From positions 1 to 64,000 of the forward strand of contig NZ_CAMCEC010000002.1 in the NCBI RefSeq assembly GCF_945873775.1: a DNA stretch of 64,000 bases, written 5' to 3'. Source of the DNA: an uncultured Treponema sp. GTDB lineage: Bacteria > Spirochaetota > Spirochaetia > Treponematales > Treponemataceae. Both the position numbers and the translations under genes were made by a program. The notes below the pieces were generated by a model, which saw nothing but the letters and a program-made list of their open reading frames with translations, had not been told where the DNA came from and did not search any database. Shown piece after piece: positions 26,358-27,173 of this stretch (the first letter of the stretch is position 1; every line of letters begins with the position of its first letter).

Positions 26358-26927
26358 TCACATAAAATTTATTGTTTTGCAAATTGCTTCAAAATTATTT
26401 CCAGCTTCTAAAAGGCTTGAACACAAAGCAGAGCATTTTTTGTAAAGCTCCATTTTTTTTACAGCTTCCGCGACATTTCCGTAGACCGCCCAAGCCCCGG
26501 AAAATTTTGTTTTTGTTCCGGAATATTTTTCGTATCCAACAACATCTTCCAAAGGATAACCAAGAAAAACTCCAATCTCATGCGGAAAAATTTCGCAATA
26601 AGAAAGGCGATTCAAAAGCTCATTCAGAACATTTGAAATCCCCTTGTCTGTAAAATAGCCTTTTAAATTCAAGTACGACAAAACTTCAGGCTTTGAAAGA
26701 ATTTCCTGAACAAGTTTTTCATCATAAATGAAAAGCAAAAAAAGATTCTCTCCCCTTCTTGCAATTTTTATTTTTTTCTGGCTGCCCTCAAGGATTTTAT
26801 TCCACAGAAGGATTTTTTTGTATTCACAAAACAGCACTTTTTTTGAAACAGAAACAAGACTTGAAGGCTTTGCTCCGCATAAAGTCGGCGCCCCCAAGTG
26901 AATTACTGTCTGCTCAAAAGTTTTCAT
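26358..26927 (-). CDS. DUF3793 family protein
   Basis: A 189-aa protein of unknown function matching the DUF3793 family by its blocks HLGAPTLCGAKPSSL, LNRLSYCEIFPHEIGVFLGYPLEDV and the KMELYKKC near the C-terminus. The family occurs in anaerobes and often sits next to flavodoxin, as here, suggesting a role in iron- or redox-linked metabolism; this is inference. The ribosome site GAGG comes directly after the U-tract of the leader hairpin. Confidence 0.85.
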   Translation of the reverse strand: MKTFEQTVIHLGAPTLCGAKPSSLVSVSKKVLFCEYKKILLWNKILEGSQKKIKIARRGENLFLLFIYDEKLVQEILSKPEVLSYLNLKGYFTDKGISNVLNELLNRLSYCEIFPHEIGVFLGYPLEDVVGYEKYSGTKTKFSGAWAVYGNVAEAVKKMELYKKCSALCSSLLEAGNNFEAICKTINFM

Positions 26928-26935
26928 ACAACCTC

Positions 26936-27020
26936 AAAAAAAATGCGGGCATATCACATCAGTGGCTGTGTAAGGAGATGTAAACTTAGGATTAAGAACC
27001 GCAAGTTTATATGCCCGCTA
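26936..27020 (-). ncRNA. Candidate structured leader (riboswitch/attenuator) of DUF3793-flavodoxin
   Basis: Within the 5' UTR, on the minus strand, a perfect 10-bp stem P1 (GCGGGCATAT at 27018-27009 with ATATGCCCGC at 26954-26945) encloses two hairpins: P2 AAACTT / AAGTTT (loop 15 nt) and P3 ACATC / GATGT (loop 16 nt). The loops contain GGTT and AGCC, which could pair. P1 is followed by A and eight T (26943-26936), then the GAGG ribosome site. A three-way junction closed by a stem that ends in a U-tract looks like a ligand-controlled terminator. I could not match it to a riboswitch class I know. Confidence 0.5.
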
Positions 27021-27033
27021 GTAATAAATATAA

Positions 27034-27061
27034 GTTAGACTAAACTAACTTACAAAAGTTA
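27034..27061 (-). promoter_or_regulatory. Overlapping palindromes at the DUF3793 transcription start (possible metalloregulator operator)
   Basis: GTTAGACTAAACTAAC (27034-27049) is an imperfect palindrome and TAACTT-ACAA-AAGTTA (27046-27061) a perfect one. They lie just downstream of the -10. The TTAG...CTAA half-sites recall DtxR/IdeR-type operators; this is a resemblance, not a match. Confidence 0.45.
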
Positions 27062-27089: not shown

Positions 27090-27112
27090 TCATTCTGGGA
27101 AAAATTTTAAAC

Positions 27113-27149
27113 AAAAAAAATCCGCCATTCTAAAACAGAACAACGGATT
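27113..27149 (-). terminator. Intrinsic terminator after gatB
   Basis: Minus strand AATCCGTTGTTCT / AGAATGGCGGATT with G-T wobbles and a GTTTT loop, followed by eight T. It separates gatCAB from the next promoter. Confidence 0.75.
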
Positions 27150-27173
27150 CAAAAATTTACGTTTCAAGAAAAA

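Follow-up and report, generated by a model that had tools for sequence, protein, structure and literature searches.

The 85-nt element that precedes a DUF3793 gene in the window, i.e. the entire 64,000-nt stretch of Treponema DNA analysed here, very probably represents a new family of iron-sparing, trans-acting small RNAs (sRNAs) in Treponema that is absent from Rfam. It occurs as an independent gene and carries a conserved unpaired seed, and in relatives this seed is complementary to the ribosome sites of mRNAs for iron proteins.

The locus lies on the minus strand, with the gatB terminator on one side and the DUF3793 gene on the other (Table 1). The initial annotation, which left the strand implicit, had described a perfect 10-bp stem followed by U8 and a ribosome site, and all of these were indeed present; the DUF3793 and flavodoxin genes that it named downstream were recovered as Pfam matches. 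The promoter that it proposed was found as well, although at about 134 nt from the DUF3793 ATG rather than ~125 nt, and transcription would be expected to start near position 27054. The TTAG...TAAC dyad recurs at the equivalent place in most homologous leaders, and the exact GTTAG-N6-CTAAC site occurs once per genome both in the window's own genome, G000 (27034-27049), and in G145 (G145:C1:433460-433475), which suggests a repressor with very few sites. The 85-nt element folds with -26.5 kcal/mol, against an average of -12.9 for shuffled sequences (z -4.87; 0/200 shuffles as good), and in the window a weak CACA/TGTG hairpin is also found inside the 10-bp stem. Neither the window nor the loci of six relatives had a match in Rfam. 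A match to L10_leader at 27106-27160, weak (E 0.043) and under the cut-off, was rejected, as it corresponds to the terminator after gatB.

Table 1. Features of the sRNA locus and of the adjacent operon in the window
Feature	Position	Strand	Basis
Sigma-70-type promoter TTGACA-17-TATGCT	27089-27061	minus	sequence; equivalent promoter in aligned relatives' copies
Operator-like dyad GTTACTATATGCTAAC over the -10 box	27073-27058	minus	sequence
Putative sRNA transcript, ~119 nt, promoter to terminator	27054-26936	minus	promoter and terminator anatomy
Operator-like dyad GTTAGTTTAGTCTAAC (GTTAG-N6-CTAAC), just 3' of the promoter	27049-27034	minus	exact-site search
Terminator stem, 5' arm GCGGGCATAT	27018-27009	minus	sequence; covaries with 3' arm
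Accessory hairpin AAACTT (27008-27003) / AAGTTT (26987-26982)	27008-26982	minus	lineage-specific
Seed loop TCTCCTTACACAGCCAC	26978-26962	minus	identical in 15/196 genomes
Terminator stem, 3' arm ATATGCCCGC	26954-26945	minus	sequence; covaries with 5' arm
U8 tract of terminator	26943-26936	minus	sequence; one A between 3' arm and T8
Ribosome site GAGG	26935-26932	minus	sequence
DUF3793 gene	26927-26358	minus	PF12672, 150.5 bits; ATG at 26927
Flavodoxin gene, second in operon	26350-25934	minus	PF00258

We compared 196 Treponema-group genomes, including G000, and found the RNA of this type (type A) in 21 of them, in one copy each, by an exact loop search and with a covariance model derived from 14 copies; weaker matches to the model were doubtful and are left out of this count. 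Its core consists of one covarying terminator stem around a conserved unpaired loop, UCUCCUUACACAGCCAC, which contains the anti-Shine-Dalgarno-like CUCCUUA. The covariance analysis of relatives' upstream regions that had been suggested as a check bore out the stem, in which 10 of 11 pairs are changed on both sides, with 98.7% of cells paired (0/500 shuffles). The exact 17-nt loop was present once per genome in each of the genomes counted in Table 1, while the reversed-pattern control returned none. The three-way junction described in the initial annotation does exist in the window, but its second hairpin, AAACTT...AAGTTT, was seen in no genome other than the window's own, G145 and G084, and, as judged from the aligned copies, the junction is a local embellishment, the covarying core being a single stem with a large open loop. 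Since the other copies lack the AAACTT hairpin, the proposed kissing of GGTT with AGCC finds no comparative support. The type-A RNAs of G001 (L036) and G189 (L044) have TAACCTC between the operator and the hairpin; it looks like a remnant of the 5' seed of the type-B RNA (see below), and these two RNAs are possible intermediates.

DUF3793 homologues, the upstream regions of which were read, are present in 114 of the 196 genomes. In most relatives they are preceded by GTTAG-N6-CTAAC dyads, with or without an RNA: the type-A RNA is found in 10 cases and a different RNA, type B, in about 28, while the remaining leaders lack a hairpin of this kind, many of them consisting of the operator alone. 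Apart from the 10 copies that precede DUF3793, type-A RNAs are located elsewhere (11/21), and nearly all of these keep the same promoter and dyad. They are followed by an enolase gene in G053, G159 and G174 and by an RNase H gene in G112 and G059, are intergenic or at a contig end in G106, G109, G005 and G009, and in G131 and G179 the sole gene after the terminator is convergent. A convergent gene is out of a riboswitch's reach, and the RNA therefore most likely acts in trans, as an independent sRNA gene with its own promoter and intrinsic terminator. In G106 and G109, DUF3793 is found at another place, with operator-like dyads present and the RNA absent. The initial annotation was thus right in pointing to an undescribed, iron- or redox-linked regulatory RNA with a terminator stem, but its assignment as a cis riboswitch of the DUF3793-flavodoxin operon does not agree with this distribution, and a riboswitch for FMN, a metal or a cofactor was rejected because the RNA also occurs away from DUF3793. 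We also rejected a cobalamin-like GCCACTG, of which the conserved part is AGCCAC, the TG after it being variable, and sequestration of the RNA's own Shine-Dalgarno, as the seeds have no consistent match to the ribosome sites of DUF3793 genes.

Candidate targets were sought in 14 type-A genomes as TGTAAGGAG followed by ATG, with contiguous complementarity to the loop measured outward; all sites were fetched from nine genomes, and part of the sites from the others. Iron or Fe-S genes were found at 18 of 28 long sites (at least 12 contiguous complementary bases before an ORF) and at 4 of 54 short sites of 9-11 bases (Fisher p = 8.5e-8), with iron genes assigned by the analyst, not blind, short-site genes judged mostly by eye, and sister species, i.e. 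non-independent sites, included in all target-site statistics. In several relatives the longest complementarity at start codons reached 12-17 contiguous bases, and sites of 14-17 bases numbered 10, as compared with 0.58 expected from shuffled seed flanks (p 0.0035). The long sites precede genes for desulfoferrodoxin (four genomes), rubrerythrin (three), NifH, IorA and an Fe-S protein (two each), and, in single cases, a nitrogenase component, pyruvate-formate-lyase activase (PflA), a NifU-like scaffold, a 4Fe-4S FAD oxidoreductase, and an aldo/keto reductase that contains a ferredoxin domain. Part of them precede genes without a known iron link. The two longest, of 17 bases (L307 in G159) and 16 bases (L233 in G189), lie before genes of the PF14196 ATC_hydrolase family, which may be unrecognised iron enzymes, or may belong to the regulon for another reason. 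In addition, a perfect 15-base site (L231 in G036, L232 in G012) precedes a gene without a Pfam match in its N-terminal 260 residues, the product of which, in our reading, resembles a sugar isomerase.

In G000 itself, pattern searches and inspection of a few loci revealed no iron gene whose start has at least nine contiguous bases of Watson-Crick complementarity. With wobble allowed, nine contiguous bases were found at one iron gene only, that for SufBD (L370, G000:C16:49715-49733), in which TGTAAGGGG before the ATG forms nine pairs, one of them wobble, at -16.2 kcal/mol; this duplex does not stand out from shuffled sequence, 22% of shuffles being as good. No other iron-related candidate target was seen in G000, and the apparent SufBD homologue in G189 (L283) has TGTAAGGAG. 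The desulfoferrodoxin start of G000 gave no signal, the two-block pattern GGCT-N-AAGGA gave 46 matches in G000 and 54 in G145 with no iron gene among the loci read, and a duplex scan of gene starts within the window yielded no outstanding iron gene. Either the G000 targets use a different register or lineage for pairing, or the regulon has become smaller; the assignment of the window's element as an sRNA, made by sequence comparison, rests on family membership and not on its own target list.

The type-B RNA, which occupies the DUF3793 locus in other species, combines a single-stranded GUACCUC, which follows the operator, with GACUGUUUC as its terminator loop, and its stem also covaries. No case was found of both types in one genome. 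A tandem pair of type-B hairpins precedes DUF3793 at L026 (G161:C77:101918-102025). At nine loci (L010, L011, L023, L025, L028, L037, L038, L047 and L050) a long insert, often with hairpins, separates GTACCTC from the terminator, and the two type-B seeds therefore tolerate very different spacing. In four type-B genomes, AGAGGTAC...ATG sites were found at Fe-S genes for 20 of 37 ORFs, the background for this count being borrowed from the short type-A sites and not taken from genomes without type B. The genes code for aconitase (three) and another aconitase-family enzyme, IlvD, ferredoxin (two), PflA (two), radical SAM proteins (three), Mrp (three), desulfoferrodoxin, a 4Fe-4S FAD oxidoreductase, and, in three copies, a Cys-rich protein in which a 4Fe-4S-like motif was recognised by eye; in one of these three copies (L410 in G037) a complement of the second seed, GAAACAGTC, stands immediately before AGAGGTAC. 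A looser pattern for the type-B loop, GAAACAGT...ATG, was abandoned, as it returned too many sites to interpret.

At two orthologous targets, desulfoferrodoxin and the 4Fe-4S FAD oxidoreductase, the complement follows the RNA type of the genome, being that of type A in type-A genomes and that of type B in type-B genomes. The desulfoferrodoxin start favours the type-A loop in several type-A genomes, at -32, -24, -15 and -13 kcal/mol. In most genomes with type B it is the type-B elements that it favours (-10 to -16 kcal/mol for the best element), and it has an ordinary Shine-Dalgarno in genomes with neither RNA; this sequence comparison is independent of the site counts. We would give even chances to the view that types A and B are one sRNA locus, the seeds of which changed during Treponema evolution, with target ribosome sites rewritten to follow, so that UAAGGAGAAU-type sites would go with the CUCCUUA seed, and GAGGUAC or GAAACAGUC with the GUACCUC and GACUGUUUC seeds. 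Such rewriting, if true, would constitute a natural record of wholesale sRNA-regulon co-evolution.

Could the element instead operate in cis, as a riboswitch or attenuator in which a ligand at the loop decides on termination before DUF3793-flavodoxin? In 10 genomes its stem and U8 do separate the promoter from the first gene, and strong stem covariation and strict loop conservation would be compatible with an aptamer; however, an aptamer would be expected before genes of one metabolic theme and in many cases to match a known family, while the copies before eno or rnhA, or with no co-directional gene, share no such theme, and several of the genomes in question have DUF3793 with the operator and without the RNA. 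Moreover, what is conserved is an unpaired, anti-Shine-Dalgarno-like loop rather than a structured aptamer core, no conserved alternative pairing of the antiterminator type was apparent by eye, and such a device leaves the loop complement at iron-gene start codons in relatives unexplained. We regard control in cis by a ligand as very unlikely.

A simple intrinsic terminator, or a spacer hairpin, with no regulatory function of its own would account for the terminator form of the element, but hardly for 17 unpaired loop bases that stay invariant while all stem pairs but one change, or for seeds complementary to iron genes, and it seems to us scarcely credible. A combination of roles, in which an iron-sparing sRNA acting in trans would also be a regulated terminator setting the level of DUF3793-flavodoxin, is unlikely: the terminator stems are long and stable, no conserved competing structure was noticed, and the RNA exists elsewhere without the operon, even though in 10 type-A and most type-B genomes a single promoter serves both RNA and operon, which the terminator separates.

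Under the sRNA interpretation, which we favour, the element would form the 3' part of an sRNA gene of ~120 nt composed of a promoter, repressor dyads, and a terminator hairpin whose large loop is exposed. A metal-dependent repressor would bind GTTAG-N6-CTAAC, and its release, presumably at low iron, would allow the RNA to be made. Most transcripts would end at the sRNA terminator, and the loop would pair with the Shine-Dalgarno of iron and Fe-S mRNAs, probably blocking their translation and thereby sparing iron, while read-through from the same promoter would yield DUF3793 and flavodoxin, an iron-free substitute for ferredoxin. The type-B RNA would do the same job at the same locus in other species with different seeds.

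Our literature search found no iron-sparing sRNA from a spirochaete (Treponema), and on DUF3793 it returned nothing relevant beyond an incidental mention. With a predicted target list that includes desulfoferrodoxin, rubrerythrin, nitrogenase, PflA, aconitase, IlvD and ferredoxins, iron regulation in Treponema becomes directly testable, and an sRNA that has two interchangeable seed types, and a promoter in common with flavodoxin and with DUF3793, a family so far unstudied, makes a clean system for comparative work on sRNA-target co-evolution.

RyhB of enteric bacteria and PrrF of Pseudomonas are repressed by Fur. Their logic overlaps with that proposed for the Treponema RNA, in that Fe-S and iron proteins go down when iron is scarce, although the Treponema RNA has no Rfam match; both are Hfq-dependent (PMC9410917). 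FsrA of Bacillus subtilis, which is Fur-repressed and helped by FbpA, FbpB and FbpC, binds the Shine-Dalgarno of iron-enzyme mRNAs with a C-rich motif (PMC9410917), and the Treponema RNA has a similar C-rich anti-Shine-Dalgarno motif but, again, no Rfam match. The staphylococcal iron-sparing sRNA IsrR applies single-stranded C-rich seeds to the Shine-Dalgarno of iron-enzyme mRNAs, and has an intrinsic terminator and two operator copies at its promoter (PMC9410917). The Treponema RNA is similar in its seed, predicted to pair with the Shine-Dalgarno, its intrinsic terminator and its two operator copies. It differs from IsrR in belonging to another phylum, in matching no Rfam family, in the location of the type-A seed in the terminator loop, in preceding a flavodoxin operon in about half of its copies, and in its operator, which is GTTAG-N6-CTAAC and not a Fur box; its response to iron is a prediction. 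Overall, by analogy, the logic of the proposed mechanism is that of IsrR and FsrA (PMC9410917), in an RNA without Rfam-level kinship to any described one.
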